Source: a virus
Virus record (IMG/VR): IMGVR_UViG_3300030098_001019
Span: 1 to 35,929 of that record
DNA: 35,929 nt
Strand: one strand, 5' to 3'
The position numbers and the translations under genes are program-made. Under the pieces are notes generated by a model. The model saw only the letters and a list, made by a program, of their open reading frames with translations. It did not search any database and was not told where the DNA came from. Shown piece by piece: positions 12,619 to 27,857 of the stretch. Numbering within the stretch: position 1 is the stretch's first letter; each line of letters opens with the position of its first letter.

Positions 12619-12627
12619 GAGGCAAAG

Positions 12628-13554
12628 ATGGCAGAGGTACTACAAGAACTTATCGGGGGGCAACAATTCTCCTACGGGTGCAACACTTCAACCGGCAGCC
12701 GCAGGTTTCTTCTCTACGAAGATGACACTTCAGTATCTTTCCCATTGGGTAGGGCACTCAACTACCTCAAGCAAAACCTAGACATTGGGATGGGTTGGGA
12801 AGGTGTCCCCGGCTGGACAGTTACTGACGTTACCGTTCAGTCCAGTTCTGAAAGATCAGAGGCATACGAGATCACGGCCAACTATCGGTTTGGTGTTGCT
12901 TGCGACACCGCGCCTTGGATGATTGGGTGCGTCTCAACCAATGTGTCTGCAAGAACCGAGATGCTCGACATGTACCGAGCAAACCCAAAGACCATTGCAC
13001 AAGTTGCTCCAAGGGAAGATGGCAACGAAGGCACAGACATCGGGGGCAACTCAATGGACGTAGGCGGAGAGGCCGCGTCATACTTGCTCCCGTTGCTTGA
13101 CTTGCAAGTTGTCGAGAACGCAACCTCGCCTCCAAACCACATTGTCTTGGCTTCCTACATTGGATGCCGCAACAAGTTCCAATGGGGCAACGGTGCGCCT
13201 CCCGGATCGCTCGTATATCGCGGCACTTCAAGCAACCTCAATGGCGGCATCTACACGTTGACGCACAACTTCACTCTTGACTTGGATCTGCATCATGCAA
13301 GACAAGTCGCAGTCAACAATGCAGACGGGGAAGCAATGGTTGCGTCAGCCAACATCGCAACTCAAACCGGTGATGGCAAGAATGCAATCATCGCAAAAGG
13401 ATGCTCCGAACATGTAGTGTGGGTGCAGCCATTCGATTGCTTGCTTGACTTTGACTTGATTCCTTTCTCAGACTGCTGGCCGACTTCGCCATACTCCAAC
13501 TTGGATCACATGTGGCCGAACGGTATGTCTACACCGGCCTCTATCTACGGATGA
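12628..13554 (+). CDS. Tail protein after the tape measure (distal-tail candidate)
   Basis: The 308-residue product has a GAGG ribosome site 9 bp upstream. I do not recognise a family. It is beta-rich with scattered cysteines, and includes LLYEDDTSVSFPLGRALNYL, a NGGIYTLTHNFTLDLDLHHAR strand region and a Trp/Cys-containing end. In siphophages the gene after the tape measure normally encodes the distal tail protein or a tip component, which is the only basis for the suggested role. No signal peptide. Confidence 0.6.
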   Translation: MAEVLQELIGGQQFSYGCNTSTGSRRFLLYEDDTSVSFPLGRALNYLKQNLDIGMGWEGVPGWTVTDVTVQSSSERSEAYEITANYRFGVACDTAPWMIGCVSTNVSARTEMLDMYRANPKTIAQVAPREDGNEGTDIGGNSMDVGGEAASYLLPLLDLQVVENATSPPNHIVLASYIGCRNKFQWGNGAPPGSLVYRGTSSNLNGGIYTLTHNFTLDLDLHHARQVAVNNADGEAMVASANIATQTGDGKNAIIAKGCSEHVVWVQPFDCLLDFDLIPFSDCWPTSPYSNLDHMWPNGMSTPASIYG

Positions 13555-13557
13555 CCA

Positions 13558-15099
13558 ATGGCTAACTACCCACAGATCTCTGAAGGACTGGGCAAACTCA
13601 CTCCTGCCTTGTGGGCGCGCCTAATGAAAGGCCTGAAGGACTTTGAAGACTTCACGGCCAACAATAACGCGATGCGAGTTCGGGACCGCAAAGGTCGCAG
13701 GGGCAAGCGAGGCGGTGTTTCCGCATCGAACTTGGTGCGAGTAAAGAACACGGGCAGCAATCAGATTCTCCAGTACGAAGCGTGCGTGGTTCAGACGAAC
13801 TACATCACTCTCGACGATCAACTCGATGCTTGTGAAAGTTGCAGTGGGTCTACGGTTTGCGACTTTGGCGAATGCGGAGTGTGGCCCGGAGGCGGCGATG
13901 AAGGCAAAGGCTACTCGGATGTCTATGACATGCTGCGGTCGTCACCAGACCTTACTGTCGAAGTCAAAGACGCACGCTCAACAAGCACGCTCAAACCCAA
14001 GCCCGGCGCACTGCTAGACGTTCTTGTTGCAGCGGGTGACATTGGTGCTGGTGAAGAAGGCTTCTGCTACTTGTCTGGCTTGCACTACGCTTGGATATGG
14101 GACCCAAGAGGAATCACCAACTGCCCTATCTCTCCCACGACGAACGGCTCACTTCGGCAACATGAGTTTCTCTACGCCGACCTGCCCGATATCCCGATGG
14201 GGTACAAGGATGGCTACGGCCCTGACCAATGGACAGACAGTGCAAGCATCTACACGGGAGTGCCGGAAGATCCGTTTCTCACTGGCGGCGGATTGGTGCC
14301 GTATGACTACACGTTTGACGGGGATGGTTCAGCAGGAAGTTATATCACGGGCAATGGAGTCAGCGGGTATGACGTGTACTTGCCCTTGATCGCAAGGCCG
14401 CAAGGCAGGTACCGCATTCACTGGATCGACACGACCGACAAGGTGTATCAGAACACTTCAGACGGAGCGGCCGGAACGCAGAAGGATTGGTGGTTGGCTG
14501 ACTGGGCTTGCAACATCACAGGTGCAGGCGAGCATGGCGAGCCAGAAGGACACGCAACAGGATACGATTCTAGGATTCGCATGGCGCTCGTTGAACGACT
14601 CCCGCATTGGGAAACCCCTACCGTGATGGCACAAGTCACAAGGCACACACAAGCACTCAAGAGCGGCCAATATCAAGACCTTCAGTATTGGTACCAGTGG
14701 CGATACCTTGTCAGCGGAACTTGGAACGATGAGTCTGCCAACTACTTCAACTACTGGCAACTTGCTGAGTATGGGTATGGGATCAACATGCCCGAACTTC
14801 ACAACTGCCTCTGCACCAATTCCACTTGCAGCAACTGCGGGATAGACCCAGACGATCCGCCTGCGTCAGATGACTTCAATGACTTCGCTGGCGGCATCAA
14901 CATCAGCAAGTTGAACGACTGCTTTGGCATTGGTGGTTGGGAGTTGGTTCCTGCAGCGGGGTATAACGACCAAAGCAATGGCATCGGCAAGATGTCTTTC
15001 GTCAATATGCGGCTCGGCATGGATGAGAATGGAAACCAGATGCCGTCGTTCTCGATTCAGAACGGTGTGCAAAGTATCTGCGTCGTGAGTCCCGGCTAG
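13558..15099 (+). CDS. Cysteine-rich distal tail / tail-tip protein
   Basis: The 513-residue product has no family I can name. The basic N-terminus (RVRDRKGRRGKRGG, about 40-53) is followed by beta-rich sequence and two cysteine clusters: CESCSGSTVCDFGECG near residues 90-105 and CLCTNSTCSNCG near 420-430, spaced as in metal-binding knuckles or disulfide knots. Many Trp, Tyr and Gly residues are typical of adhesin surfaces. Position after the tape measure and before adhesin-like genes suggests a baseplate or tip component. Only three bases separate it from the previous stop. Confidence 0.6.
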   Translation: MANYPQISEGLGKLTPALWARLMKGLKDFEDFTANNNAMRVRDRKGRRGKRGGVSASNLVRVKNTGSNQILQYEACVVQTNYITLDDQLDACESCSGSTVCDFGECGVWPGGGDEGKGYSDVYDMLRSSPDLTVEVKDARSTSTLKPKPGALLDVLVAAGDIGAGEEGFCYLSGLHYAWIWDPRGITNCPISPTTNGSLRQHEFLYADLPDIPMGYKDGYGPDQWTDSASIYTGVPEDPFLTGGGLVPYDYTFDGDGSAGSYITGNGVSGYDVYLPLIARPQGRYRIHWIDTTDKVYQNTSDGAAGTQKDWWLADWACNITGAGEHGEPEGHATGYDSRIRMALVERLPHWETPTVMAQVTRHTQALKSGQYQDLQYWYQWRYLVSGTWNDESANYFNYWQLAEYGYGINMPELHNCLCTNSTCSNCGIDPDDPPASDDFNDFAGGINISKLNDCFGIGGWELVPAAGYNDQSNGIGKMSFVNMRLGMDENGNQMPSFSIQNGVQSICVVSPG

Positions 15100-15101
15100 T
15101 C

Positions 15102-16601
15102 ATGTACCCTTACAAGTGCTGCTGCTGCGGTGGATGCAATTGCTGGTCATTGGACGATGGTTCTCCCGGTACTGGATTCGGTGACAACTCGACATGCAAC
15201 AGGTGTCTCCGCAATGACGGCACTCGCTGCGGTACTGAGAACAACTACGCGGGTGACGACTGTGCCACTGATGAATGCGGGCCATCGGTGCCTACGGTTA
15301 TTCCATTCTCTGCAAGCACGCACTGGGCATGGGGCTGGTCGCGTCGAGAGTTTGCTCTATCTTGCATGGGAGCGAGTTCGCCTGAAGCATCTGCAACGCT
15401 GACCAACTCGGGGTGGGGATGCGGGGGAGATCAAACCGGTGTCTCAATGTGGAGCACTTGGAACGCAGCAGATCAGACAGGTGGAGTCTTTTGGGTTCCT
15501 GCTGGCAACATCAGTATGTCTCTCCGTCTTGACAACGAGCAGGCTTACAACTTGGGCGAATGGACAGACGGCACTTCGACTCCCGGAGGTTGGGTAGATG
15601 GCCACCCTCCCGGTTGCTGCGCCAAGTACTACTACGGCAAGTGTGATCTTGCTGGCCCTGCCACTCCAAGCATTAGCACGAACCCTTGGGGATACGACGC
15701 AGCCGACTTCGGCGGAACGGGTGAAGCCACGACAACTGCACCAACGTCTTTGGAAGCATGGGGCAGGCTTGAGTTGTTGACCGGAGGTTGGGCATTCAAC
15801 TATGGCGACCTCAAGCCTCACCTCGTGATGCGTGCAACACTTCAGATTTGGGTCGCGATCAAAGACTGGTTCAGCAACATCAGCGAAGTCATCAACGGCA
15901 ATGCCTCATACCGCAGGCAGATGATGGCGTTGGTGACTTACTCCTATGTTGAGGTGGGCGGTTGTTCTTGCAATCACGGTGCGGAACTTATTGAAGGCAT
16001 CGACTGGTCGAACATATCGTCTGGCTTTTGGAACTACCGATGGCCGTACCCAAGTTCTGGCTCAGCGGATGTTTCAGATACTGCCAACTACACGACAACG
16101 CCGGGGGTGGGATCAGGTGGAACCTACCACTGCGGCGACTGCGGGAGAGGTACTCCATGCCCATGTACCGCAGAAACATTCACGCTCAAAGGATTCGAAG
16201 GTTGCGGTGAACCGTTCTGCACACCTACTGACTGTTCAGCCCCGTGGTTCTGGAGAACTAACGTGCCTGCCAACACGAGCAACAAGAATCCTGCGAATCT
16301 GGTTTGGACATACGCCGCGACAAGAGGCGGTGGGCATGCAGCAGGAATGAAGAACGATAGTGGTGCGGCTTGGGGAAGTGGTGCGGCGGTGTACAACCAA
16401 GGCGGAACGGCTGACGGTCACGGATGGAAGGCCTACAACTACATGAGAGATAACGGGTGTATCGCTCTTGGCGGCGGCTCCTTCAATACGAACCGAATGA
16501 TCGGTGGCTTCGTCGGTGGGGGTTGGAACACGGGAACAACAATGCCCGCTTGTGGATTGACAGATGTATCTATCGGGGTGGGTGGAGGTCAGTTGTCTTG
16601 A
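15102..16601 (+). CDS. Very cysteine/glycine/tryptophan-rich tail protein
   Basis: The 499-residue product starts with an extraordinary cluster, KCCCCGGCNCW at residues 5-15, followed by CNRCLRNDGTRCG, then internal GCCAKYYYGKC, GGCSCNHG, CGDCGRGTPCPC and CGEPFCTPTDC. The body is Gly, Trp and Asn rich, as in extracellular beta structures. There is no signal peptide, so the cysteines would be reduced in the host cytoplasm unless they bind metal, and could form disulfides only in the finished virion. Probably a tail-tip or fiber component by position. Start ATG 15102 lies just after the preceding stop. Confidence 0.6.
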   Translation: MYPYKCCCCGGCNCWSLDDGSPGTGFGDNSTCNRCLRNDGTRCGTENNYAGDDCATDECGPSVPTVIPFSASTHWAWGWSRREFALSCMGASSPEASATLTNSGWGCGGDQTGVSMWSTWNAADQTGGVFWVPAGNISMSLRLDNEQAYNLGEWTDGTSTPGGWVDGHPPGCCAKYYYGKCDLAGPATPSISTNPWGYDAADFGGTGEATTTAPTSLEAWGRLELLTGGWAFNYGDLKPHLVMRATLQIWVAIKDWFSNISEVINGNASYRRQMMALVTYSYVEVGGCSCNHGAELIEGIDWSNISSGFWNYRWPYPSSGSADVSDTANYTTTPGVGSGGTYHCGDCGRGTPCPCTAETFTLKGFEGCGEPFCTPTDCSAPWFWRTNVPANTSNKNPANLVWTYAATRGGGHAAGMKNDSGAAWGSGAAVYNQGGTADGHGWKAYNYMRDNGCIALGGGSFNTNRMIGGFVGGGWNTGTTMPACGLTDVSIGVGGGQLS

Positions 16602-16603
16602 GC

Positions 16604-16900
16604 ATGGAAACGAAGCACATGGGTTGCAGGCATTGGGTGTCTAGCCGTGACTTCTGCGTGAAGTTGCACGTCATGGCTCCGCGAACGAAGTGCGTTGGTT
16701 GTGAGTTCTACGAAGGCGGCGATCCCGGCTTGGGCGATGCGGTAGAAAAACTCATTGATATCGGGACATTAGGCCAAGGGAAGAAGATTGCAAAGGTGGT
16801 TGCCAAAGCAACAGGCAAGAAAGATTGTGGCTGCGGGAAACGTCGCGCCGCGTTGAACAGGCTTGGTGATAAACTGTCACCGAAGAAAGGCGGGGACTGA
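16604..16900 (+). CDS. Small cysteine-rich protein with CxxC and CGC motifs
   Basis: The 98-residue product has two cysteine regions: C8, C18, C30 and C33 in an arrangement like a four-cysteine metal site, and a C-terminal DCGCGKRRAALNRL. The middle is Gly/Lys rich and could be flexible. The frame is open upstream to 16457, but that part overlaps the preceding gene out of frame; ATG 16604, two bases after that gene's stop, is the sensible start. It overlaps the next gene by one base (TGATG). It may be a metal-binding tail-tip cofactor or an assembly chaperone for the cysteine-rich proteins encoded just upstream; this is inference. Confidence 0.6.
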   Translation: METKHMGCRHWVSSRDFCVKLHVMAPRTKCVGCEFYEGGDPGLGDAVEKLIDIGTLGQGKKIAKVVAKATGKKDCGCGKRRAALNRLGDKLSPKKGGD

Positions 16901-17784
16901 TGGCTACGAGATATTGGACGAACGGTGCTGGCACAGGTGTCATCAGCACTGCAAGCAACTGGACACCATCGGGTGCGCCATCTGCGGGCGACACCTTGAT
17001 CTTTGCCGCTGCGCCAACAGGTGCAACGTCAACCGCAGTCGTTGGGGGAAACTACCTCTCGCTTGGCGACATGGCTGAAGTGCGAATTGGCACAGGGTTC
17101 AATGCGGCCTTTGGATCGAGTTCTGCCTATGTCGTAATCGAAGCATCGTCAGTCATTCTTGAAAGTGGAGCGGATGTCTTCTTGGACGTAGAGTGCGCAG
17201 GCGCATCGGACAAGGTTGTCGTAGGCAGTACGCCTTTCGGTGCAGACGCACTGCACATTCGAGGCGACATCAATGAACTGCGAATCCTAGATGCAATCGG
17301 TGACGTCTCAGTTGAGTCAACGACTACCTGCACAACGTCGAGCGGCAATACCGAAGTAGACACAATGTATGTCTTCAGTCGGTCGGAGCCAACTGTCACT
17401 ATTGAAACTGCGGTCGCAAGCATGGACGAACTGAACGTCGAGGGCGGCAGCGTTGAATGCAGTGCGCCGGTGACAACCGTGAACCTGTACGCAGGCAAGC
17501 ACAAGCAAACTTCGACTGGTGCAATCACGACGCTCAATGTCTACAACAACTCCTATGCAACGCTCGAAGGCAGCGGCACGGTAACGAACCTCAACATGTA
17601 CGGCGGCAACGTCAAGTTCAGAAACAACGCCTCGGACGGCATCACCGTCACGAACTGCACGCTGAACTCCGGCACGCTTGACTTGCAGTCATCGCTTCGC
17701 AATGTCACCTTTACGAACGACATTCTCAACAAGGGTGGAGTGTTGAGGCCGCCACTGGCTTCAACGGTCGCTCTGTCTTACTGA
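16900..17784 (+). CDS. Beta-rich adhesin-like tail protein (paralog A)
   Basis: The 294-residue product opens with a motif W-x5-G-x8-ASNW-x2-SG-x-PSAGDTLIF, as in passenger-domain repeats of bacterial autotransporter-like surface proteins (NW-x-GG-x-P-x-GD). The rest is Thr/Ser/Val/Asn-rich with repeated short strands (TTVNLYAGK, TTLNVYNNS, TNLNMYGGN) every 20 or so residues, consistent with a right-handed beta-helix. Such folds serve as receptor-binding fibers or depolymerases; no catalytic motif is visible. It is homologous to the next gene and joined to it by TGATG. Confidence 0.65.
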   Translation: MATRYWTNGAGTGVISTASNWTPSGAPSAGDTLIFAAAPTGATSTAVVGGNYLSLGDMAEVRIGTGFNAAFGSSSAYVVIEASSVILESGADVFLDVECAGASDKVVVGSTPFGADALHIRGDINELRILDAIGDVSVESTTTCTTSSGNTEVDTMYVFSRSEPTVTIETAVASMDELNVEGGSVECSAPVTTVNLYAGKHKQTSTGAITTLNVYNNSYATLEGSGTVTNLNMYGGNVKFRNNASDGITVTNCTLNSGTLDLQSSLRNVTFTNDILNKGGVLRPPLASTVALSY

Positions 17785-18746
17785 TGGCAACGAAGCGTTG
17801 GATCGGATCATCGTCTACCGCAGTGGCTACTGCAGCCAACTGGTCGGGTGGTGTCGCGCCGACCAATGGAGACAAGGTTATCTTTGACGGCAGTGCGCAG
17901 AACAACTGCGTTGGAGTATTCGGCAGCAACGTCGCAACCAATATCAACATCGGGCCTGACTTCAAGTATGACATTGGCACAGAGTCAACTGCCGCATCTA
18001 TTCAGATGCGGTTTCAAAACCAAGTCACAACAATCGACATGCGAAAAGGCTTCGCAAACCTTGACTTGCTTTGCACCGATTGCGTTATCAACTCCGCACC
18101 AGCAGGCGACAACCTCTACATCACTGGAGACATTACGACCTGCATCGTTTCAGGCCCCGGCGGCAACATCACCTTCGGTTCAACTGGGTCGCTTGACTGC
18201 ACCACTTTGATTGTTGCGCCGAACACTGCCCTCGGCCCCGACCCCGCAGTGAGTGTTACCGTTGCGGGTGGCACTGTCGGCACACTGATTGCGAGTGGGC
18301 CATGCGAGATCGAGTGGACAGGAACCGGAGCAACGACCGCTGTGCTTGTCGGCCCCAAACTTCGCGCCCGATTGCACAACGATCTCGGCACGACTAAGTT
18401 GACTCTGGTGAATGCAGATGTTGAGCAAGACGAACTTGTACCAATCGCGGGGGGGTCGGGCGGCCTACTGATGTCGAACAGCAAGTTGAAGTTCAAGCAA
18501 GTTCAGCAAGCGTCAGTTGCAGCGAGTGGAGCAATCGACATCTACAAGGACGCTTGCTTGGACATGACTGAAGTTGATACTCTCTCGGCCATTGGAACAA
18601 TCACTAACTACGGCGGCCTAGTATTGCCTCGAGGACCGGTTACTATGGCAGTGCCTTCGGACACGAAGTTGAGCAGCACTTCGGCTCGGTCCCTAAACTT
18701 CTCAGTTGCTGCGAATAGCGGACACGTTCCTACTGTCCTTTGGTGA
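17784..18746 (+). CDS. Beta-rich adhesin-like tail protein (paralog B)
   Basis: The 320-residue product shares its N-terminal plan with the preceding gene: MATKRWIGSSSTAVATAANW versus MATRYWTNG, both followed by G-x-P-x-GD and a VIF/LIF strand. The two are therefore a tandem duplication. The body again has evenly spaced short strands (NLYITGD, TTLIVAPNT, GTLIASGPCEIEW) that suggest a beta-solenoid. Divergence after residue 60 suggests the two copies bind different surface structures or form a heteromeric fiber. No signal peptide. Confidence 0.65.
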   Translation: MATKRWIGSSSTAVATAANWSGGVAPTNGDKVIFDGSAQNNCVGVFGSNVATNINIGPDFKYDIGTESTAASIQMRFQNQVTTIDMRKGFANLDLLCTDCVINSAPAGDNLYITGDITTCIVSGPGGNITFGSTGSLDCTTLIVAPNTALGPDPAVSVTVAGGTVGTLIASGPCEIEWTGTGATTAVLVGPKLRARLHNDLGTTKLTLVNADVEQDELVPIAGGSGGLLMSNSKLKFKQVQQASVAASGAIDIYKDACLDMTEVDTLSAIGTITNYGGLVLPRGPVTMAVPSDTKLSSTSARSLNFSVAANSGHVPTVLW

Positions 18747-18754
18747 GGTAAGAC

Positions 18755-19396
18755 ATGACGAACTTCTCAGTTCAAGATGCGAGTGGCTCCACGAAGGAGT
18801 TCAAAGCAACAAGCGGTGATGGCTCTGGCGGCAGTCCTTTTGTCAGTGAGGTTGGCCTTGCTGACGTTGGTGAGACTGTTGACATCGGACGAGTCAACTT
18901 GATTGGCACGGCTACGGGCAACGGTGCAGTGCGGGCTGAAGGTTCAACGCCTCCCGACTACTGCGTTGCTGCTGGCTTCAACGACGGCACGAACATGAAG
19001 ATCCCGCGAACCAATGCATCGGGGCATGTGCAGGTCGTGCTTCAGACAACGAGCAATGCGATTGGTAAACTCGCTGCAAACTCTGGCGTGGACATTGGCG
19101 ATGTCGATGTTACCTCGATGCCGTTGGCGACTGCGATCTACAACGGTCAGAAGACTGTCTCGACTGCTGGCACACAGGTCGCCTTGGCATCTAGCCAAGC
19201 CATCACTCACTCAGTGAAGATCAAGGCACTGCACGGCAACAGTGGCTGGATCTACGTCGGCAACTCATCGGTGTCATCGAGCAACGGCTACGTCTTGGAT
19301 GCTGGAGAAACTGTAGAAATTCAGGTTGCTAACTTGGCGACTGTCTACGTTGACTCATCGGTCAACGGCGAAGGCGTTTCTTACGTCGCAACGTAG
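18755..19396 (+). CDS. Probable virion (fiber or baseplate) protein
   Basis: The 213-residue product has a GAGGTAAG ribosome site. It is rich in Ser, Thr, Gly, Val and Asn, with regular strand-like segments (VDIGRVNLIGTATGNG, TVEIQVANLATVYVDSS) and a closing Ser-rich domain of the kind found at tips of phage fibers or in small carbohydrate-binding modules. No identified family. It is the last gene of the structural run before the membrane protein. Confidence 0.6.
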   Translation: MTNFSVQDASGSTKEFKATSGDGSGGSPFVSEVGLADVGETVDIGRVNLIGTATGNGAVRAEGSTPPDYCVAAGFNDGTNMKIPRTNASGHVQVVLQTTSNAIGKLAANSGVDIGDVDVTSMPLATAIYNGQKTVSTAGTQVALASSQAITHSVKIKALHGNSGWIYVGNSSVSSSNGYVLDAGETVEIQVANLATVYVDSSVNGEGVSYVAT

Positions 19397-19400
19397 AGCC

Positions 19401-19742
19401 ATGACTGACCAGACATCTGAATCAGACACTTGCCCGATCTGTCAGATCAAAGAATTGGCACAGACGAAGCACGAACTGAACGAGTGCAAGAAACGTGGTC
19501 AATCCAAGGATCGAACAATCAAGCAACTGAACAAGCGAGTGTTCATCCTTACCGCGGTCGCTGTGGGCATCGGTGCGATCTTTGGCAAAGAGGCACTTGA
19601 CTCAATCACTGAATGGCTTGGGTCAGTCAAAGCATTCAAGTCTAGTGTTCAGGATCTCAGTGGAGTTGTTGTGCCTGCACCGGGAACACTGGCGATGCTC
19701 GCACTTCTGCCACTCATCGGCGGGTCAAGAAAGAGGCATTGA
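19401..19742 (+). CDS. Small membrane protein with a PEP-CTERM-like sorting tail
   Basis: The 113-residue product has four parts. Residues 11-14 form a CPIC pair. Residues about 15-46 are charged and coiled-coil-like. Residues 47-62 (VFILTAVAVGIGAIFG) form a transmembrane helix. The C-terminus (90-113) has the three-part pattern of a PEP-CTERM signal: VPAPG, a hydrophobic stretch of about 14 residues, and a basic end SRKRH. In bacteria such tails are recognised by exosortase. A phage carrying one would tie the protein to the host's sorting machinery. Alternatively it is simply a two-helix membrane protein, for example a holin or spanin-like factor at the end of the late operon. Start ATG 19401 follows the previous stop directly. 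Confidence 0.65.
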   Translation: MTDQTSESDTCPICQIKELAQTKHELNECKKRGQSKDRTIKQLNKRVFILTAVAVGIGAIFGKEALDSITEWLGSVKAFKSSVQDLSGVVVPAPGTLAMLALLPLIGGSRKRH

Positions 19743-19757
19743 AGTGGTGATCCTTTT

Positions 19758-19777
19758 GCACATGTGCGAAGCCGCAC
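19758..19777. promoter_or_regulatory. Overlapping palindromes, possible operator
   Basis: GCACATGTGC (19758-19767) is a perfect 10-bp palindrome, and GTGCG-AAGC-CGCAC (19764-19777) is a second inverted repeat overlapping it. GTGCGA recurs at 19857-19862 and 19889-19894. They lie at the start of the 339-bp gap between the late genes and the recombination genes, a natural place for a regulator binding site. Confidence 0.4.
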
Positions 19778-19780
19778 CGT

Positions 19781-19820
19781 AACGATGCGCAACGATGCGC
19801 AACGATGCGCAACGCTCCGC
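19781..19820. repeat. Four tandem 10-bp iterons (AACGATGCGC)
   Basis: Three exact copies of AACGATGCGC (19781-19810) are followed by a fourth with two changes (AACGCTCCGC, 19811-19820). The 10-bp period is about one helical turn, so bound proteins would line up on one face of the DNA. They could be regulator sites or replication iterons. The 339-bp stretch 19743-20081 around them has no convincing gene. Confidence 0.6.
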
Positions 19821-19917
19821 ACAACTGCGTGCAGTCACAACTGCCTATCGGCACAAGTGCGAGCATTAGAGTTTGACTTTCGGCAAGTGTGCGAAGTCAT
19901 CGTGGGCCTTGCTCCAA

Positions 19918-19923
19918 TAGAAT
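19918..19923 (+). promoter_or_regulatory. Possible -10 box (TAGAAT) for the recombination/replication genes
   Basis: TAGAAT sits about 160 bp upstream of the nuclease gene in the only long gap before it. No good -35 hexamer is found at 16-18 bp spacing; a TTGACT (19873) is too far upstream. Weak evidence, recorded because a promoter is expected here. Confidence 0.2.
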
Positions 19924-19989
19924 GCGGAGCATGCAGGGACCGCATACAGACTTTCTGAAGTGCTATGGGTTGGTACTTCTTCTTGTGCA

Positions 19990-20056
19990 AGAAGGACGGC
20001 GGTTGGCGGTACGTTTCAGGCGAACTTTCACGCTACACCGTCACCGCCGTCCTTCT
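19990..20056. repeat. 14-bp perfect inverted repeat with 39-nt loop in the leader of the nuclease gene
   Basis: AGAAGGACGGCGGT (19990-20003) is exactly complementary to ACCGCCGTCCTTCT (20043-20056). The repeat lies 26 bp before the preferred start of the nuclease gene, so it would form a strong hairpin in the mRNA leader or a cruciform in DNA. It could be a translation control element, an origin-associated structure or a regulator site. Confidence 0.65.
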
Positions 20057-20081
20057 CTCTGCATTGCTCAAGGACGAAGCA

Positions 20082-20510
20082 ATGCGATTCAAGCAACACG
20101 AAACTCAGCAAGACCTCAGTAACGAGTCAGGCGTAGCCGCAGTCATTGAACGTGCGTGGCAATGCGGCATGCGCAAACTCCCCAAGTCATATCGACTCGA
20201 CTTCATGGCAGTGCGCGGTGATGATGCCTGCGCCTTCGTCGAAGTCAAGTGCAGGCGACATCAATCAGACACCTACCCGACTGTGATGCTCAGTCTGTCG
20301 AAGGTGCTGCAATCCAACGCACTAACCAAAGCAACTGGCTGCCCGTGTTTCTTCGTGGCTCGATTCACTGATGGCGTGTACTACTACGACCTGAGTGGGA
20401 AAGACTACAAGACGCAGTGGGGCGGACGTACCAAGTCAACTCGTGATGCTCGAGACATCGAGCCTATTGTTCTAATCCCAATCGCTTCAATGCAAAGGAT
20501 CCCCGAATGA
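20082..20510 (+). CDS. PD-(D/E)XK-type nuclease (VRR-NUC/restriction-endonuclease-like)
   Basis: The 142-residue product shows the core of a PD-(D/E)XK nuclease: an N-terminal helix with a Glu (NESGVAAVIERAW), Asp in SYRLDFMAV, and VEVKCR supplying the E-x-K pair. Aromatic strands FFVARF and VYYYDLSG follow. The frame is open back to ATG 19965, but ATG 20082 is preferred because AAGGA lies at proper spacing and the upstream part would span the 14-bp inverted repeat and read as unstructured sequence. It precedes the RecE-like and Erf genes and overlaps the former (ATGA at 20507-20510), suggesting a role in processing recombination or replication intermediates. Confidence 0.65.
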   Translation: MRFKQHETQQDLSNESGVAAVIERAWQCGMRKLPKSYRLDFMAVRGDDACAFVEVKCRRHQSDTYPTVMLSLSKVLQSNALTKATGCPCFFVARFTDGVYYYDLSGKDYKTQWGGRTKSTRDARDIEPIVLIPIASMQRIPE

Positions 20511-21367
20511 ATGCGTGCTACCCCACCGGGTCATACGACTCGACTGAACTAAGTGACAGCGAATACCGGCAACTGCCGTACATCAATGCCTCGCTCATCA
20601 AGCAAGCAATTGCTAGTACCAAGTACCTAGAAGCCTACCTCAGCAAAGACAGCGACGAGTCGCCTGCGTTGGTGCTCGGCAGTGCCTTTCACATGACCAT
20701 GCTAGAACCGCACTTGTTCGACGAGACGTTCGTGCTTGGTCCCAAAGTTGATCGGCGCACCAAGGTCGGCAAGGCTGCTTGGGCGGAGTTCATTGAACAC
20801 CACGGCAACAAGAAAGTGTTGACCGGAGCAGACATGCTTCGCATTGAAGGCATGAAGCAAGCGATTGCCAGCCATGATGAAGCAACCGACTTGCTGTACC
20901 CGAAGCATCAAGCCGCCTACGAGAAAGTAATGATCTACAATCCTGACGAAGCATTGACTACAGATGGCCTCACCACCTCTGCAATGAAAGGCAAGTTGGA
21001 CGTTGTAGACTTTGGCCGAGGATTCGTGGTCGACATCAAGACGACTCAAGATGCTTCGCCTGATTCGGTCGGTCGCACCATCGAACGGTTCGGCTATGAC
21101 ATTCAAGCAGCGTTCTATTCGAACCTGTACCGTGAAGTGGTTGGTGAGAATCCAACCTTCTGGTTCGTCTTCGTTGAGAAAGAACCGCCTCATGGTGTCT
21201 TGGTATGTCGCCTCGACGATGACTGGCTTGAGTATGGTGCGGCTCGCATGAAGCGAGGCATCAACGCAGTCGATGACTACCGAATGTTCGGAACACGAGA
21301 CTACAACAACAGCAAGGGGCTAGTTCTTGAATGCCCCGCATACATCTCAGCACGAAAGAAAGGATGA
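20507..21367 (+). CDS. RecE-like PD-(D/E)XK exonuclease
   Basis: The 286-residue product resembles the catalytic domain of exodeoxyribonuclease VIII (RecE/DUF3799 type), which resects duplex ends to give 3' single strands. Visible motifs are LVLGSAFHMTMLEP (the G-x-x-x-H element) near residue 57, KGKLDVVD with the catalytic Asp, VVDIKTTQDASP with the D-x-K core, and FGYDIQAAFY, the Q-x-x-x-Y motif typical of RecE/RecB-family exonucleases. It is followed at once by an Erf annealing protein and an SSB-like protein, a complete recombination cassette. Confidence 0.88.
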   Translation: MNACYPTGSYDSTELSDSEYRQLPYINASLIKQAIASTKYLEAYLSKDSDESPALVLGSAFHMTMLEPHLFDETFVLGPKVDRRTKVGKAAWAEFIEHHGNKKVLTGADMLRIEGMKQAIASHDEATDLLYPKHQAAYEKVMIYNPDEALTTDGLTTSAMKGKLDVVDFGRGFVVDIKTTQDASPDSVGRTIERFGYDIQAAFYSNLYREVVGENPTFWFVFVEKEPPHGVLVCRLDDDWLEYGAARMKRGINAVDDYRMFGTRDYNNSKGLVLECPAYISARKKG

Positions 21368-21370
21368 CCC

Positions 21371-22009
21371 GTGCCTACTGAAACCGTTCCTTATATCGAA
21401 GACAGTGCAGCAACCATAGACGTGATTGGTACTCGCCTAATGAAAGCGCAAGAGGCGTTGCCGTTCATCATCAAAGATGCACAGAACAGCCATGCGGGTT
21501 ACAAGTACCCAAAGGCCGACTCGTACATTGCGTCCTGTCGTTCTGCATTGCTTGACTCAGGCTTGGTGATGCGTCGAACCTTTTGGTTCAATCGTGAAGA
21601 CATGACTGTCAACATTCACTTCGCAATCATCGCGCCCGACTGCGGCGTATCACAGGATGACGGGCCTATCGTGTGCCCTGTTGTTGCACGCAAAGGCATG
21701 CCCGAAGACAAGGCGATGTTCGCTGCGTTGACATCATCAACGAGTTACTACCTTCAAGGTCTGTTCATGTTGCCGCGACTTGACAGTGCCCCTGAGGTGG
21801 ATCAGATCAACGACACTGAGTTCGTGCCGACCGAAGAAGACGAGCGCGACCTATGGGTTGCCATCAAAGAACTCGCGGAACTCGTAGGGATGGACACCGA
21901 TAAGGTGACATCAATGGTAACCACTCGTGCGAACGAGACAGGTGAACGAATCACTGCCGCATTCGTGCGGTCACTTATTGACACTGCAAAAGCAAAGAAA
22001 GGTAACTGA
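21371..22009 (+). CDS. erf: Erf-family single-strand annealing protein
   Basis: The 212-residue product is predicted to coat and anneal the single strands made by the exonuclease upstream. The Erf pattern is visible at residues about 25-140: a helix ending in PFIIKDAQNS, YKYPKADSYIASCRSALLDSG, a beta region, then KAMFAALTSSTSYYLQGLFMLP, where P22-like Erf proteins carry a helix ending in a Leu/Phe-rich turn. The C-terminus is charged. It starts with GTG at 21371, three bases after the preceding stop. Annealing proteins of this type often also serve genome circularisation after infection. Confidence 0.85.
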   Translation: MPTETVPYIEDSAATIDVIGTRLMKAQEALPFIIKDAQNSHAGYKYPKADSYIASCRSALLDSGLVMRRTFWFNREDMTVNIHFAIIAPDCGVSQDDGPIVCPVVARKGMPEDKAMFAALTSSTSYYLQGLFMLPRLDSAPEVDQINDTEFVPTEEDERDLWVAIKELAELVGMDTDKVTSMVTTRANETGERITAAFVRSLIDTAKAKKGN

Positions 22010-22011
22010 CG

Positions 22012-22407
22012 ATGCAGTTTGACATGACCAAAGCAAAGACGACCGACTTCGAACCATTGCCCGAAGGTGACTACCTCGTGAAGATCGAGGCTGTTACTGA
22101 GAAGAAGACCGATGGAGGGACCATGTTCTTGGAACTCACCTTGCGGTGTGAGAATCGTCGCATCGTGTGGGACCGTCTGTACGCTGACAATCCCAACAAG
22201 GCTTTCTTCGTTGCTCGCGCTTGCGGCATCAACTTCAATGATGCTCTTGAGTGCGACGACCTTATGGGCAAGACGGTGTCGGTGCATGTTGTTGTCGATA
22301 CCGAAGGCGACACCCCTCGCAATCGCGTGTCTGCTTACCAACGCCCGAACGATGTCGCCGACGCGATGACCTCCGCGCCGGTGGCTGATGCGGACGTCCC
22401 GTTCTGA
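22012..22407 (+). CDS. Single-stranded DNA-binding protein (DUF669-like)
   Basis: The 131-residue product shows an OB-like beta pattern (EGDYLVKIEAVTEKK, TMFLELTLRCENRRIVWDRLY) and a FFVARACGINF helix, as in the phage DUF669 family. It ends in a short acidic tail DADVPF, closely matching the D-D-x-P-F tip of bacterial SSBs that recruits replication and repair partners. Immediately downstream of erf and upstream of the replication protein, it most likely protects single strands for both processes. Confidence 0.8.
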   Translation: MQFDMTKAKTTDFEPLPEGDYLVKIEAVTEKKTDGGTMFLELTLRCENRRIVWDRLYADNPNKAFFVARACGINFNDALECDDLMGKTVSVHVVVDTEGDTPRNRVSAYQRPNDVADAMTSAPVADADVPF

Positions 22408-22422
22408 CTGTTCCCTGCAAGT

Positions 22423-22464
22423 CAACTCGGCGGGGTTCTGCATGGTGCAGGCCCCGCTGAGTTG
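22423..22464 (+). terminator. Long hairpin between the SSB-like and replication genes (no U-tract)
   Basis: CAACTCGGCGGGG (22423-22435) pairs with CCCCGCTGAGTTG (22452-22464) over 13 positions with one G-T wobble, and an inner CTGCA/TGCAG stem (22438-22442 / 22446-22450) extends it. It fills most of the 78-bp gap. Lacking a T run, it is more likely an attenuator or mRNA processing/stability element than a simple terminator. Confidence 0.6.
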
Positions 22465-22485
22465 GCGAACCCTGAAAGACAACCC

Positions 22486-23235
22486 ATGTATCAGATCATC
22501 AACTTCGACAAGCATTACCTCACGAGTGATCTTCGCCGTGGCAAGATCAAGCGTCCGTCTTGGTTCAAGTGCCCTGTCGATTCACCTGAAGTAGTGACAC
22601 TCATTCACGGACACCCCGAAGGCCTTAGCCACCTTGGAGTGTGGGAACGGATGCAGGCTTGGGCGGTGAAGAATCACGACACCAAAGGATCGTTCGTACT
22701 CAAGGGCGGTCCGATGTCGTTGCTCGACATCAAGATCCACTGCACGCTCCCGCACCACGCACCCATCGAAGAAGCCGTAGACAGACTCATGCAACTCGGT
22801 TGGATCGCAGATGTGCCTGACCAAGACTACGACTCCGTAGTTACGGTGGAGGAACTCGCGACAACCTCCAGCCCACATGACATGACAAGACAGAACACGA
22901 CAGGAGAGAACAAGACAGGAGAGAACAATACGACCCCACAGTGGTCGAGTGCAGATGGGTTCACTTGCATTGACCAAGACCTGATTCAATCGTGGGAGGT
23001 CGCGTACCCCGCAGTAGACATCGACCAAGAGATGGGCAAGATGCACGCATGGCTCATAGCCAACCCTGCGAAGGCCAAGCGGAAACTGTGGGCGAGGTTC
23101 ATCAACAACTGGCTTGGTCGCTGTCAGGAGTCCGGAGGCAACAAGCCAAGCAACAGGGTCAACTTCAAGGACGCGGCTGACAGGCCGCAGCAGAGCAACG
23201 CATGGGCGAAGGAGGCCGGCCGTCGCGTCGGGTAG
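22486..23235 (+). CDS. Phage replication initiator-like protein (lambda O-type)
   Basis: The 249-residue product has an N-terminal winged-helix-like domain (residues about 1-115: a DSPEVVTLIHGHPEGLSHLG loop, then PIEEAVDRLMQLGWIADV), a hydrophilic linker at about 125-150 rich in Thr, Asn, Glu and Gly, and a C-terminal helical domain ending KLWARFINNWLGRCQ, a pattern common at the end of phage replication proteins of the lambda O/DnaD-like kind. The linker is encoded by three tandem 15-bp repeats, as origins lie inside lambda O. ATG 22486 is used; the frame opens slightly earlier but inside the hairpin. Assignment rests on architecture and position, not a diagnostic motif. Confidence 0.6.
   Translation: MYQIINFDKHYLTSDLRRGKIKRPSWFKCPVDSPEVVTLIHGHPEGLSHLGVWERMQAWAVKNHDTKGSFVLKGGPMSLLDIKIHCTLPHHAPIEEAVDRLMQLGWIADVPDQDYDSVVTVEELATTSSPHDMTRQNTTGENKTGENNTTPQWSSADGFTCIDQDLIQSWEVAYPAVDIDQEMGKMHAWLIANPAKAKRKLWARFINNWLGRCQESGGNKPSNRVNFKDAADRPQQSNAWAKEAGRRVG
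22884..22928. repeat. Three tandem 15-bp iterons inside the replication gene (candidate ori)
   Basis: GACAGGAGAGAACAA occurs exactly twice in a row (22899-22913, 22914-22928) and is preceded by a 12/15 match (22884-22898). Being in frame, they encode degenerate pentapeptides in the linker. Iterons within the initiator gene are the lambda/P22 plan for a replication origin. They could instead be a repeat-encoded linker with no role in DNA binding. Confidence 0.6.
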
Positions 23236-23312
23236 CAACTCCAATGAACAGTCCTAGAAAAAACAGCGGATTTCTGTCACTTTATTCAGGCCGCCTCAGA
23301 CCCACTCAGTGC

Positions 23313-23389
23313 CACTCTGACGGCTCACAAGCCGCTCAATGCGACGACATGCGGGCTATCGTCGGAAGCCGTCACGAGCCGTCTGAGTG
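23313..23389. ncRNA. Candidate structured element I in the 323-bp gap after the replication gene
   Basis: CACTC-T-GACGGCTC (23313-23326) pairs with GAGCCGTC-T-GAGTG (23376-23389): 13 pairs around one T-T mismatch. An inner CGACGA (23342-23347) / TCGTCG (23359-23364) stem lies within. The gap 23236-23558 has no credible gene and also holds an A-rich run (AAAAAA near 23265). It may be an origin structure, a small RNA or a leader; the strand is undetermined. Confidence 0.5.
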
Positions 23390-23413
23390 CGTCACAAGTG
23401 AGGCTGCTGAATC

Positions 23414-23481
23414 CCTCCGCATTGACGCACGCACGCACACGGCTCCACACGCCGCCGACGACGGGGGCCGCGATGCGGAGG
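23414..23481. ncRNA. Candidate structured element II in the same gap
   Basis: CCTCCGCAT (23414-23422) is perfectly complementary to ATGCGGAGG (23473-23481), and inside it CGGCTCC (23440-23446) pairs with GGGGCCG (23464-23470) with one wobble. It ends about 75 bp before the start of the small HExxH gene. Together with element I it makes a compact, doubly folded region. Nature unknown. Confidence 0.45.
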
Positions 23482-23546
23482 CCGCCGGAGGATGCGAGCC
23501 AGTACGAGCAGCGTCAGTGGGCGACGATGAGCAGGGCGGGGCGAGG

Positions 23547-23552
23547 TATAGT
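23547..23552 (+). promoter_or_regulatory. Possible -10 box (TATAGT) just before the HExxH gene
   Basis: TATAGT lies 7 bp upstream of the ATG at 23559, so a transcript from it would be nearly leaderless. No clear -35 element. GAGG (23543-23546) and GGGGG (23553-23557) in the same place could instead be ribosome-binding sequence on a longer message. Confidence 0.25.
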
Positions 23553-23558
23553 GGGGGC

Positions 23559-23828
23559 ATGCAAGTCACCGTCCGGGGTCACCGATGGCGACTGGTCTTC
23601 ATGGATCGGTTGCCCTCTGGTGCTGCTGGTGAGTGCGACCAGATCGGCGTGCCTGATAAAGCCATCTGGGTAGCGACTCAGCAGCGGCCCGTTGACGTAC
23701 TGGACACACTGATCCACGAGTTGCTGCACGCAGCACTCCCGGACCTTTGCGAAGAAGCCGTAGAAGAAACAGCCACGGACATTGCCCGTGTACTAAACCG
23801 ACTTGGAGTAACTGTAGACGATGAGTAA
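23559..23828 (+). CDS. Small zinc-metallopeptidase-like (HExxH) protein
   Basis: The 89-residue product has HELLH at residues 53-57, the zinc-binding helix of zincin metallopeptidases, followed by an acidic helix (EEAVEETATDIARVL) that could supply the third ligand. It is much shorter than most peptidases, resembling the minimal SprT/ImmA-like folds that phages often carry. ATG 23559 is chosen because the open frame upstream runs through the structured gap and encodes low-complexity sequence. It could cleave a host repressor or act in DNA-protein crosslink repair. It overlaps the next gene by eight bases. Confidence 0.65.
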   Translation: MQVTVRGHRWRLVFMDRLPSGAAGECDQIGVPDKAIWVATQQRPVDVLDTLIHELLHAALPDLCEEAVEETATDIARVLNRLGVTVDDE

Positions 23829-24303
23829 TATCGCCCAACAATTCAACTGGCACAAGATTGCAGACATCATCAGCAAGCGTTGGCCTTCATGGGAACCTAC
23901 CGATCATGAGTTAGAGGATTGGAAGCGCGTGCTGTGCAACCTCGACCTTGCAATCATGGACGAGGCTTTGCTTGAAGTGAAGATGTGCTATGCGTCAGAC
24001 GTTCCGAAACTGAAGTGGGTACGAGACAAGTACTACGGCATCGTCGAGTCAAGGCGCGTGGCTCGTCAACGTGAGCAAGCATCGACTTGTGCAAGCAGTC
24101 AAGAGGACGAGCAGATCATGGCAGAGGTCGAACGAGACAAGCGCAACTGCCTGCAGGCATTGCGAGCGATGGCAGTCGATGAGATCGAACGACGGAAAGA
24201 AATTGTTCGCAGTCGATGGCGCATGGTGACGATGCCTTCGGGCAGCAACGTCGAGGAGTGGAGTTGGATGTCGAGGTACGCGGTGCTCTTGGCGACTGAG
24301 TAA
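23821..24303 (+). CDS. Replication-module protein, possible helicase loader/organiser
   Basis: The 160-residue product has an N-terminal helical domain (IADIISKRWPSWEPTDHELEDWKRVLCNLD, then MDEALLEVKM) similar in style to phage helicase loaders and inhibitors such as SPP1 gp39-like proteins, then a charged helical segment (residues 75-140, EVERDKRNCLQALRAM) that could be coiled coil. No P-loop, so it is not a helicase. Position after the replication gene and immediately before a strong terminator suggests it closes the replication operon. The functional suggestion is inference. Confidence 0.5.
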   Translation: MSNIAQQFNWHKIADIISKRWPSWEPTDHELEDWKRVLCNLDLAIMDEALLEVKMCYASDVPKLKWVRDKYYGIVESRRVARQREQASTCASSQEDEQIMAEVERDKRNCLQALRAMAVDEIERRKEIVRSRWRMVTMPSGSNVEEWSWMSRYAVLLATE

Positions 24304-24311
24304 GCGAGCCT

Positions 24312-24360
24312 AAAAAAAAAGCAGGCCGCCCGACTCGTGCCGGGTGGCCTGCTTTCTTTC
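24312..24360. terminator. Bidirectional intrinsic terminator between convergent operons
   Basis: GCAGGCCGCCCG (24321-24332) pairs with CGGGTGGCCTGC (24341-24352) with one wobble and an 8-nt loop. An A9 run precedes it and a T-rich run (GCTTTCTTTC) follows, so it works as a rho-independent terminator in both directions. The rightward replication operon and the leftward accessory operon both end here. Confidence 0.92.
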
Positions 24361-24373
24361 AATCATTTCTTGT

Positions 24374-24802
24374 TCAGTAGCCTTTCGTCTGCGACTCGTA
24401 AGTCATCGGATCGTCGTCTGCAGGTTCATCTGGCATAGGTGGTTCGTATGCTGGATGCTTGGCACCTAGATGCTCAGGTTGAATTGCACTTACCTGCACT
24501 TGCCTCAGCCCCGTAGAGAATCTTTCTTCGACACCTTGCAGGAATGAAAGCAAGCAGTTGTAGTAGTCCCAACGCATCGGCACATGCTCAAGTCGCATGT
24601 CGCCATCAACGCTAATGATAACTGCAGGTCCGTGAATCAAGAACAGTTGCCTTTTGCTAGGAGGCGTGTTGTAAGGATCGGGTGTGTCGGGAGGATAGAT
24701 TTCTTCGTGCTCAATGCAGTAGTACTGCACATGGGCGAAGTCGCCGGGTTGCATCTCAATGGGTTTGGGAGATTGGCGGCTGAATCGGTCATGTAAGTTC
24801 AT
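24374..24802 (-). CDS. Hypothetical protein, last gene of the leftward operon
   Basis: The 142-residue product has no known family. The first half has beta/aromatic character (FAHVQYYCIEHEEIYPP, RQLFLIHGPAVIISVDG); the C-terminus (from about residue 110) is Pro, Asp and Glu rich and probably disordered. ATG at 24802 is preferred, with GGAGAG upstream; the longer open frame runs through an inverted repeat. It ends 14 bp before the shared terminator. Confidence 0.6.
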   Translation of the reverse strand: MNLHDRFSRQSPKPIEMQPGDFAHVQYYCIEHEEIYPPDTPDPYNTPPSKRQLFLIHGPAVIISVDGDMRLEHVPMRWDYYNCLLSFLQGVEERFSTGLRQVQVSAIQPEHLGAKHPAYEPPMPDEPADDDPMTYESQTKGY

Positions 24803-24818
24803 TGGTGTCTCTCCGGGT

Positions 24819-24862
24819 AAGGGCCGTGAGCATTCGCAACGAGCGAGATGCCCACGGCCCTT
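24819..24862 (-). other. Intergenic hairpin in the leftward operon
   Basis: AAGGGCCGTG (24819-24828) is perfectly complementary to CACGGCCCTT (24853-24862), and a second imperfect stem GCATTCGC / GCGAGATGC lies inside. It occupies the 76-bp spacer between the XRE regulator gene and the last gene of the leftward operon and reads the same from either strand. No T run follows on the minus strand. Confidence 0.65.
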
Positions 24863-24878
24863 TGCGCGGATCTTGGAG

Positions 24879-25094
24879 TCAAGTCGCTTGTTGCGTCTCG
24901 ACAAGTGTTGATAGGTACTGATGCATCTTGGATGCGTTCAGTGTTCCAGTGTCGTGAGATTGAAGAACCAAGTAACGGCGAACGGTGTCATACCCAACGC
25001 CGCTACCTTGAGCCAAGGCGTAAGTCGTGATGCCTGACTCTTGGAACATTCTGAGTATCTCGGCTTTGATCTCGTTGGCTTGTTGTTCAGTCAT
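24879..25094 (-). CDS. XRE-family helix-turn-helix regulator
   Basis: The 71-residue product has a single HTH: a helix IKAEILRMFQES, then GITTYALAQGSGVGYDTVRR, the two-helix recognition unit of Cro/CI-like proteins, and a final helix (NASKMHQYLSTL). It consists of the DNA-binding domain alone. ATG 25094 overlaps the stop of the upstream small membrane gene (TGATG on the minus strand) and no separate ribosome site is seen, so it depends on translation of that gene. It could act on the palindromes at 19758, 28178 or 28200. Confidence 0.7.
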   Translation of the reverse strand: MTEQQANEIKAEILRMFQESGITTYALAQGSGVGYDTVRRYLVLQSHDTGTLNASKMHQYLSTLVETQQAT

Positions 25095-25210
25095 CAGTCT
25101 GAACGTCGCCAACCGGGATGCTTCTTGTCCATGTGATCTTCCATCAAAGGAAGGATCGCACCAAAGAAACCGAACAGTAACAAGAAGCCAAGGATGAAGT
25201 AACCAATCAT
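25094..25210 (-). CDS. 38-residue single-pass membrane protein
   Basis: This ORF reads MIGYFILGFLLLFGFFGA, then a short ILPLMED and a charged end KKHPGWRRSD. Residues 3-21 are a clear transmembrane helix with a basic C-terminal tail. AAAGG lies at good spacing before the ATG, and the stop overlaps the start of the XRE regulator gene, so translation of the two is coupled. Its function is unknown; such peptides in early operons may alter host membranes or act as small regulators or superinfection factors. Confidence 0.65.
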   Translation of the reverse strand: MIGYFILGFLLLFGFFGAILPLMEDHMDKKHPGWRRSD

Positions 25211-25232
25211 GGGGTTGCCTTTCGTCTGACAA

Positions 25233-26264
25233 TCAGACAAGTGCGAGTGCAGCCTTGGTGACTGCGCCCTTCAGGTTGTTGGATGTACCGAACAGGTTGG
25301 AGTGCCCGCGGGCTTCGTTTGCATTGCGATGGGACGAAGTGTTGCGAGCCGTTCGGGTGTGGTCAGACCACTCGGTGATTGCGTTGAGTGCCGCCCAAGC
25401 AGAACCTTCGCAGCCGTTGTTAGTGCAGGTGGGGCTTTCAAAGTTCTCAAGCCATGCGCCAACAGTTGTGAGTGCCTTGCGTCGTCGCTTGATAGCGGCT
25501 TTGCTTTCATCGTGGGCACTTGGGATGGGTTCAAACTCCGACTGGTAAACGTCAACGAAGAACTCTTGCAGTTCTGCAGTCGTCAACTTTTTCTTGTAGA
25601 GCGCGTCCGCAGCCTCGACGAACTTTTCACGTTGACCAGACACTGCCTTGAACAAGTCACGGATCTTGTCGATCTGTTCTTGAATGCTAGGCGTGTGCCG
25701 GAACCTGAACAAGCGACCGTTGCGGCTTGCTTGGAATTGAGCCATCCGCTGAGTGTTAGCACACTCAATGCGGTAGAGGTGTCCCAATGCTTCAAGGCTT
25801 TGGAAACCATCGTGACCGTTCACAAGCGAGAAGAACGTATCGACCGGGTCCTTGCCGCCGACCATCATGGTGTCTGTGCGGCAGCAAAGGAAAGTCGTAC
25901 GCCCATTGCGGAACGAACCTGCTGACTCAACTCGCGGCATTGCTCCATCGTCCGCAGCGGCGTAAGCAAGTTCTGCCAACTGCGAGTTCTGGACGATGCT
26001 ATAGGAGTCGCTCACAATCCCAAGGACTTCCTTGGTGTCACTGCGGACGTTCGCAATGTGACTCTCTGCAGGCACTCGCATCGGGGGCATGCCTTTCGGT
26101 TCGATCACCGCATACAGGGGAGCGGGAATGACTTCCCAGTCGAGTCCTGCAATCTGCATTGCACCTTCGATGGTCGGTGCTTGCTCAACTACTGTCCCAA
26201 GGCTATGCCAAGCCTTGCGACCTGTGACCATGAGGTTGTCGTGTTCGTGAATCTCGTGTGCCAT
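25233..26264 (-). CDS. DUF932 / phage-plasmid-like protein
   Basis: The 343-residue product resembles the DUF932 (TIGR03299) family found on phages and plasmids. Diagnostic parts are the N-terminal AWHSLGTVVEQAPT, EVLGIVSDSYSIVQNSQL, and NGHDGFQSLEA with IECANTQRMA. The family function is not established; members are often early-expressed and abundant. ATG 26264 has AAAGGAAT upstream. Length matches the family. A perfect 10-bp hairpin lies in the spacer before it. Confidence 0.85.
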   Translation of the reverse strand: MAHEIHEHDNLMVTGRKAWHSLGTVVEQAPTIEGAMQIAGLDWEVIPAPLYAVIEPKGMPPMRVPAESHIANVRSDTKEVLGIVSDSYSIVQNSQLAELAYAAADDGAMPRVESAGSFRNGRTTFLCCRTDTMMVGGKDPVDTFFSLVNGHDGFQSLEALGHLYRIECANTQRMAQFQASRNGRLFRFRHTPSIQEQIDKIRDLFKAVSGQREKFVEAADALYKKKLTTAELQEFFVDVYQSEFEPIPSAHDESKAAIKRRRKALTTVGAWLENFESPTCTNNGCEGSAWAALNAITEWSDHTRTARNTSSHRNANEARGHSNLFGTSNNLKGAVTKAALALV

Positions 26265-26299
26265 TGGTGTTGATTCCTTTTGGGCACTGCGCAAAGACA

Positions 26300-26324
26300 C
26301 GGCTCGGCGAACACCGCCGAGCCG
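26300..26324 (-). other. Perfect 10-bp hairpin in the leftward operon
   Basis: CGGCTCGGCG (26300-26309), loop AACAC, CGCCGAGCCG (26315-26324). It lies in the 84-bp spacer between the nonapeptide-repeat gene and the DUF932 gene, 35 bp upstream of the latter's start. No U-tract on the minus strand, so processing or attenuation is likelier than strict termination. Confidence 0.7.
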
Positions 26325-26348
26325 CATCCTTGCTGGGTTGTATTGGTA

Positions 26349-27116: not shown

Positions 27117-27243
27117 CTGGAACCTCCTATGGGTTGTGCCGCTGTGCGGCAGTTGGGTTGTGATGGCTTGTGCCATCGTGATTGAGATGCCCGCCGACCA
27201 CCTTTCAGTGGCCGACGAGTGTGGAACCTTCCCGGTTCGTTGT
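27117..27243 (-). other. 127-bp spacer with several small hairpins
   Basis: No gene. Short inverted repeats follow each other: GCCGC-TGT-GCGGC (27138-27150), GATGGC-TTGT-GCCATC (27162-27177), CCAC/GTGG (27198-27211) and GAACC-TTCCC-GGTTC (27224-27238). Individually weak, but the density matches the other spacers of this operon. The strong ribosome site of the repeat-protein gene lies at its left edge. Confidence 0.45.
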
Positions 27244-27537: not shown

Positions 27538-27547
27538 TGGGTTGCTT

Positions 27548-27584: not shown

Positions 27585-27593
27585 GAATTGGTG

Positions 27594-27848: not shown

Positions 27849-27857
27849 AGGTCTCTG

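Follow-up and report, generated by a model that had tools for sequence, protein, structure and literature searches.

The window, that is, the whole stretch of DNA analysed (35,929 nucleotides), is the record of a tailed phage, in which a terminase, a portal, a protease, an HK97-type capsid protein and a protein of the tail tape-measure type are encoded. The gene under study lies between unannotated tail-region genes and recombination genes (a PDDEXK endonuclease and an exonuclease VIII downstream), and its start is placed four bases past the end of an unannotated tail-region gene (18755–19396) for which a family search gave no significant match. It codes for a protein of 113 residues (MTDQ...SRKRH), the parts of which are collected in Table 1.

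Table 1. Positions of the gene, of the parts of its product and of other genes discussed in the text (window coordinates unless a locus is named)
Feature	Position	Strand	Basis and remarks
Whole gene, 113 aa: two-helix membrane protein with PEP-CTERM-like tail	19401..19742	+	ORF and relatives; start ATG at 19401, stop codon 19740–19742; coordinates exact
N-terminal domain, residues 1–46	19401..19538	+	Alignment, charges; predicted cytoplasmic
First hydrophobic helix, residues 47–66	19539..19598	+	Alignment, hydropathy
Linker, residues 67–90	19599..19670	+	Alignment; predicted periplasmic; short
PEP-CTERM-like tail, residues 91–113	19671..19739	+	VPAPG, hydrophobic stretch, SRKRH
71 aa protein, coiled coil and C-terminal helix	First gene of 29314–30017		
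124 aa lipoprotein, about three helices	29530–29904		Relatives in L028, L018, L011 and L404
38 aa protein, helix and CCKKKC end	Third gene of 29314–30017		
PEP-CTERM-type gene on a viral contig	L261, 5081–5704		Signal-peptide-like start (by eye), soluble domain
PEP-CTERM-type gene on a viral contig	L271, 218 aa frame	reverse	

The N-terminal domain is a charged, coiled-coil-like helix in which residues 30–46 carry a net charge of +7. Cys11, Cys14 and Cys29 are invariant across the 29 aligned family sequences, with the CPIC motif at residues 11–14 and a CxC spacing in L017 and L024. The strongest Kyte-Doolittle window begins at residue 47, at the first hydrophobic helix, which is conserved in the family and in which Ala59 and the Gly-Lys-Glu triplet at 62–64 do not vary. 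Thus, the second hydrophobic helix and the CPIC pair that an initial sequence-only reading had placed ahead of the tail are both present. This helix is preceded by 46 residues, many of them charged, and inspection by eye, by which the presence of a signal peptide was judged, showed no canonical signal-peptidase site in the window protein. Trp72 is invariant in the linker and the remaining columns are mostly variable. The tail (VPAPGTLAMLALLPLIGGSRKRH) opens with VPAPG at residue 91. An AlphaFold model places helices at residues 12–60, 63–86 and 94–106 with low confidence (mean pLDDT 64.4, pTM 0.28), and comparison with the PDB gave no useful match by fold (one, E 6.2) or by sequence (best E 0.13). 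Under the positive-inside rule, which is well established, the N-terminal part and the basic end would be cytoplasmic and the linker periplasmic, and P-x-P would therefore be exposed on the outer surface of the inner membrane.

Several other features could be seen in the window. Directly past the gene, CGATGCGCAA is present in three tandem copies (19783–19812). Two adjacent tail-region proteins (16900–18746) start with W...NW....P..GD.VIF, which we take to resemble repeats of bacterial surface proteins; neither gave a Pfam match better than E 0.27. Three small membrane genes stand in a row at 29314–30017 and look like a lysis or exclusion cassette. The region 30601–35076 holds genes of queuosine type (a tRNA-ribosyltransferase-like protein, a PTPS of the QueD-like kind, a QueE-like radical SAM protein and GTP cyclohydrolase I), probably for modification of DNA or tRNA. 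Matches to the large terminase are found at both ends of the record (1–778 and 35402–35929), as would be expected if a circularly permuted genome had been opened within this gene.

The family is spread over very different phages, among them the HK97-capsid phage of the window, T7-like contigs in which a terminase adjoins the family gene or an RNA polymerase gene lies near it (L021 and L008 tested), and records of 136–157 kb carrying genes that resemble cyanophage and pelagiphage ones (L005 tested). In L021, L024 and L026 the immediately neighbouring gene belongs to the large terminase cluster (L021 tested). A small protein with a transmembrane helix and a coiled coil (c1) is encoded at most three genes away in 10 of 30 loci (L002–L007, L018–L020 and L028), a count obtained with neighbouring genes called greedily by length and including the c1 gene of L002, found only by a separate comparison. 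It is present elsewhere in 3 further records, and no c1 relative was found in the window. The four c1 proteins tested gave weak matches to lysis families (best spanin E 0.005, best holin E 0.013), and a lipoprotein that has additional helices is encoded between c1 and the family gene in L018 and L028. These neighbourhoods suggest a late membrane module, which may serve in lysis.

Conservation of the C-terminal tail

Relatives were sought by whole-protein patterns and then by alignment-derived patterns limited to the first-helix region. They were found on 31 viral contigs, giving 32 proteins with that of the window, two pairs of which are almost identical, L011/L013 at 103 of 106 residues and L426/L429 at 110 of 111. 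P-x-P is kept in all 32 members, including those found by first-helix patterns only, and its middle residue is Ala, Ser, Gly or His, never Glu. Relatives that retain the helices and have lost P-x-P, the observation named beforehand as speaking against a sorting tail, number none among the 32. A basic end follows the hydrophobic stretch in every member; the last nine residues contain at least four Lys or Arg in 31 of 31 relatives and three in the window protein (SRKRH). In the alignment, which covers 29 sequences (of the 30 proteins known at that stage L027 was dropped, and L426 and L429 were found later), all four Pro codons are used at Pro92 and Pro94 and most flanking columns vary, which points to selection on the protein, rather than recent copying, as what has kept the motif.

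Against the NCBIfam PEP-CTERM model (TIGR02595) the window protein scored 11.3 bits alone and 14.3 bits in a search of 30 phage records, in both cases below the curated cut-off of 16 bits. In the same records the model gave matches at E ≤ 10 in 11, all 11 lying inside this gene by their coordinates, and one of them (G002, 19.8 bits; 1 of the 30 records) above the cut-off. The profile search that had been proposed as a check thus fell short for the window protein itself, yet in every record matched it singled out this gene. The phage tails are more distant from the model than the tails of the bacterial PAPG group described below, 7 of 29 phage members matching at E ≤ 1 as against 71 of 74 bacterial tails.

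Bacterial PAPG tails and the probable host

A DNA pattern for PAPG[AST]-L-A-L-L, run over 84,980 species genomes, returned at least 120 stretches, of which 80 loci were counted. By title, 65 of the 80 listed loci are Phycisphaer- (49) or Plancto- (16), 2 belong to planctomycete genera, 8 carry no group in the title and 5 come from other bacteria. Of 90 PAPG matches in these loci, 89 have a basic pair and a stop codon no more than 45 residues on. A profile built from the tails of 74 of the 80 loci (6 failed a frame, length or edge filter) was searched against 3590 six-frame ORFs of 30 phage stretches, L027 being omitted because of an unread base. Ranks 1–23 were all taken by this phage family, so that 23 of the 29 members searched stand above every other ORF; the window protein was placed at rank 5 (E 1.5e-4) and the first ORF outside the family had an E of 4.3. 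The remaining members fell lower (L021 at rank 29, L012 at rank 42, L006 at rank 67) or gave no match at E ≤ 100 (L018, L028 and L029), and several with P-G-P fit this profile poorly (L006, L018, L028 and L029).

In the opposite direction, the phage profile was taken to 298 genomes of the class of G031 (titled Phycisphaeraceae), where at most 15 first-look candidates per genome were scored among the matches listed. It hit 10 places in 9 genomes, each of them in the C-terminal tail of a PEP-CTERM-type protein encoded by the cell. The class of G038 (titled Paraglaciecola polaris), with 272 genomes searched, gave no hit, an empty result that is uninformative alone; PEP-CTERM tails do occur in this class, in 9 of 36 genomes. 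The use of PAPG as a clean class marker was rejected because P-E-P tails predominate among 30 TIGR02595 hits from the class of G031, these hits being the top-scoring ones and so biased to P-E-P.

A chance resemblance to a PEP-CTERM tail is ruled out by the conservation together with the profile matches in both directions, and it is on these two grounds that the assignment of the tail as PEP-CTERM-like is supported. The three-part signal first read from the window protein therefore stands as regards motif, helix, SRKRH end, conserved P-x-P and two-way matches, and not as regards the curated score.

Since 67 of the 80 PAPG loci listed are planctomycete, a host in the Phycisphaerae or another planctomycete group is likely. 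Two contigs from the class of G031 encode relatives of the window capsid protein (46 and 50% identity over about 340 residues), as compared with 38% identity to the best-listed named phage. Capsid matches at E ≤ 1e-20 occur in 14 of 294 genomes of the phylum of G031 and are absent from the 272 genomes searched in the class of G038, the latter again uninformative alone. By a simple pattern, no ORF with such a tail was found in the two capsid-bearing contigs. An exosortase is present in all 9 tested genomes with PAPG tails, and the 30 phage records searched, of which many are fragments, yielded none.

No CRISPR spacer was evident for positions 1–20000 of the window in 397 genomes of the class of G031, where the best hits were to capsid DNA, or for 16001–35929 in 337 genomes of that class, where most hits fell in queE and the GTP cyclohydrolase gene, both of them shared with cells; at the one 28-base match inspected there was no CRISPR array. 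Copies of the gene in bacteria were not confirmed among 55 candidates from genome contigs. The named phages contained no match to the window protein or to its relative in L020, and the plasmids none to the latter.

Other virus-borne tails

Classical PEP-CTERM-type genes are also carried by viral contigs, some perhaps in the host flanks of proviruses. A tail pattern matched 130 times on viral contigs (129 loci), 111 of these matches ending as basic tails and 92 of the 111 lying in open frames of more than 200 residues. The P-E-P tail pattern is seen in 119 viral-contig stretches (L272–L390), which may be phage genes or host flanks. Two further proteins, from L261 and L271, are 58% identical and form a second virus-borne PEP-CTERM-type family. 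Together with that of L262 they likewise bear a PAPG or PSPG tail, but unlike the present family they have a signal-peptide-like start and a soluble domain. In BLAST against the phage family, among the first ten matches listed, those of the L261 protein lie mostly within its last 22–51 residues, and none is of the L262 or L271 protein. A gene read as gp25-like adjoins that of L261. The same contig encodes a secreted-looking protein ending in a DLNEDGIVGFQDLL repeat, presumably dockerin-like.

In the titles and abstract openings of the literature on PEP-CTERM or exosortase and phages or viruses, no account of phage-encoded PEP-CTERM proteins was found, nor a description of viral clients or inhibitors of exosortase. 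The relevant passages of one paper concern host genes (PMC12642866). In passages of another, proteins of family TIGR03118, which have a putative exosortase interaction domain, are counted among the cellular-origin genes of hot-spring viruses (PMC11003980), and virus-borne tails have therefore been met before. The suggestion that phage-encoded PEP-CTERM proteins are hardly described accordingly fits the portions of the literature searched and is weakened by the classical genes on viral contigs. What is new here is a conserved phage family with an architecture unlike that of classical PEP-CTERM proteins.

Proposed function and comparison with known systems

It is quite probable that the phage protein engages exosortase. 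The fuller reading, to which about an even chance is given, is that of a two-helix inner-membrane protein engaging the host exosortase as part of a late membrane module that prepares lysis. The first helix would act as an uncleaved signal anchor with the N-terminus inside, leaving the Cys/coiled-coil domain in the cytoplasm, and the C-terminal helix would form a recognition signal of PEP-CTERM type, in a dialect that is frequent among the probable planctomycete hosts. P-x-P would most likely be bound, on the periplasmic side of the inner membrane, by the exosortase of the host itself. Were it to cut there, the N-terminal part would be held in the membrane by the first helix, in contrast to ordinary host substrates. 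With the small membrane proteins often encoded alongside, such a module could ready the envelope for lysis. More tentatively, and somewhat short of an even chance, the family may turn the host exosortase to viral use either as a cleavage switch (for example, one arming lysis) or as a block of the enzyme that stops host surface sorting, in a way that matters for infection.

The second of these possibilities can be set out by itself: a membrane-anchored tail would act as a decoy, occupying exosortase and stopping the surface display of host PEP-CTERM proteins, for example so that other phages are excluded or the matrix is loosened. The retention of the tail in every member, the failure to find an exosortase in the phage records and the occurrence of the protein in very different phages agree with this, and the first helix would keep the product at the enzyme while the conserved cytoplasmic domain could cluster copies. 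TIGR02595-type tails, however, number 6–81 matches per genome in 12 of 13 likely-host genomes, and with so many host substrates a decoy would have to be made in large amounts; this reading is considered unlikely.

It is rather improbable that the product is a plain two-helix, holin-like protein whose tail, acquired at some time from a host gene, is only a membrane helix with a basic end, with exosortase uninvolved. Its two helices, predicted with both termini inside, the terminase adjoining in some phages, the weak matches to PHROG holin profiles (E 0.22, at chance level) and the greater distance of phage than of host tails from the PEP-CTERM model would suit it, but a strict P-x-P amid free variation and the two-way profile matches with host tails are not expected of a mere helix. 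Some other sorting tail read by a different enzyme, such as MYXO-CTERM, is very improbable: each of two such models finds 5 of the 29 members at E ≤ 1 (best 0.0017, against 0.007 for PEP-CTERM), but the two models also match 61 and 46 of the 74 host PAPG tails, and MYXO-CTERM requires a Cys before its C-terminal helix, whereas no conserved Cys is seen in the tail columns of the 29-sequence alignment.

If exosortase does handle the protein, viruses would be seen to exploit a Gram-negative sorting system for which there are few experimental handles. The tail dialect would then be a clue to the hosts of uncultured phages, pointing to the Phycisphaerae, for which, to our knowledge, few phages are known. 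Exosortase is still poorly understood, and a protein this small and conserved, with its tail well defined, could serve as a compact test substrate or inhibitor.

The window protein is not a classical PEP-CTERM protein. With the PEP-CTERM domain (TIGR02595, PF07589), the partner of exosortase EpsH (PF09721), it shares P-x-P, about 14 hydrophobic residues and a basic cluster at the very C-terminus, and the nearest form of that signal is the PAPG variant. P-E-P is nearly invariant in the classical domain, whereas the phage family has P-x-P without Glu; the bacterial PAPG tails likewise lack Glu and yet mostly match the model. Unlike classical PEP-CTERM proteins, the phage protein has no recognisable signal peptide, an extra internal helix (unless residues 47–66 are the signal peptide itself) and a conserved Cys/coiled-coil domain. 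According to passages of a study of these proteins, 97% have an N-terminal cleavable signal peptide by re-analysis, no transmembrane helix lies between signal peptide and tail except in one three-member group, and the presumed site of exosortase action is the outer side of the inner membrane (PMC1569441). By this comparison, the phage protein would be a client that stays in the membrane, or a decoy.

Like the holins and spanins of the PHROG lysis families, it is a small membrane protein encoded beside terminase or small membrane genes in several phages; a Pfam search of the window protein gave no match below E 0.01. We know of no holin with an exosortase signal, and no paper joining exosortase and holin was found in the literature searched. 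Finally, the LPXTG-type sorting tails of Gram-positive bacteria have a different motif, and the same passages describe sortase and EpsH as not homologous (PMC1569441), but the three-part design is the same, and the logic is probably the same as well.
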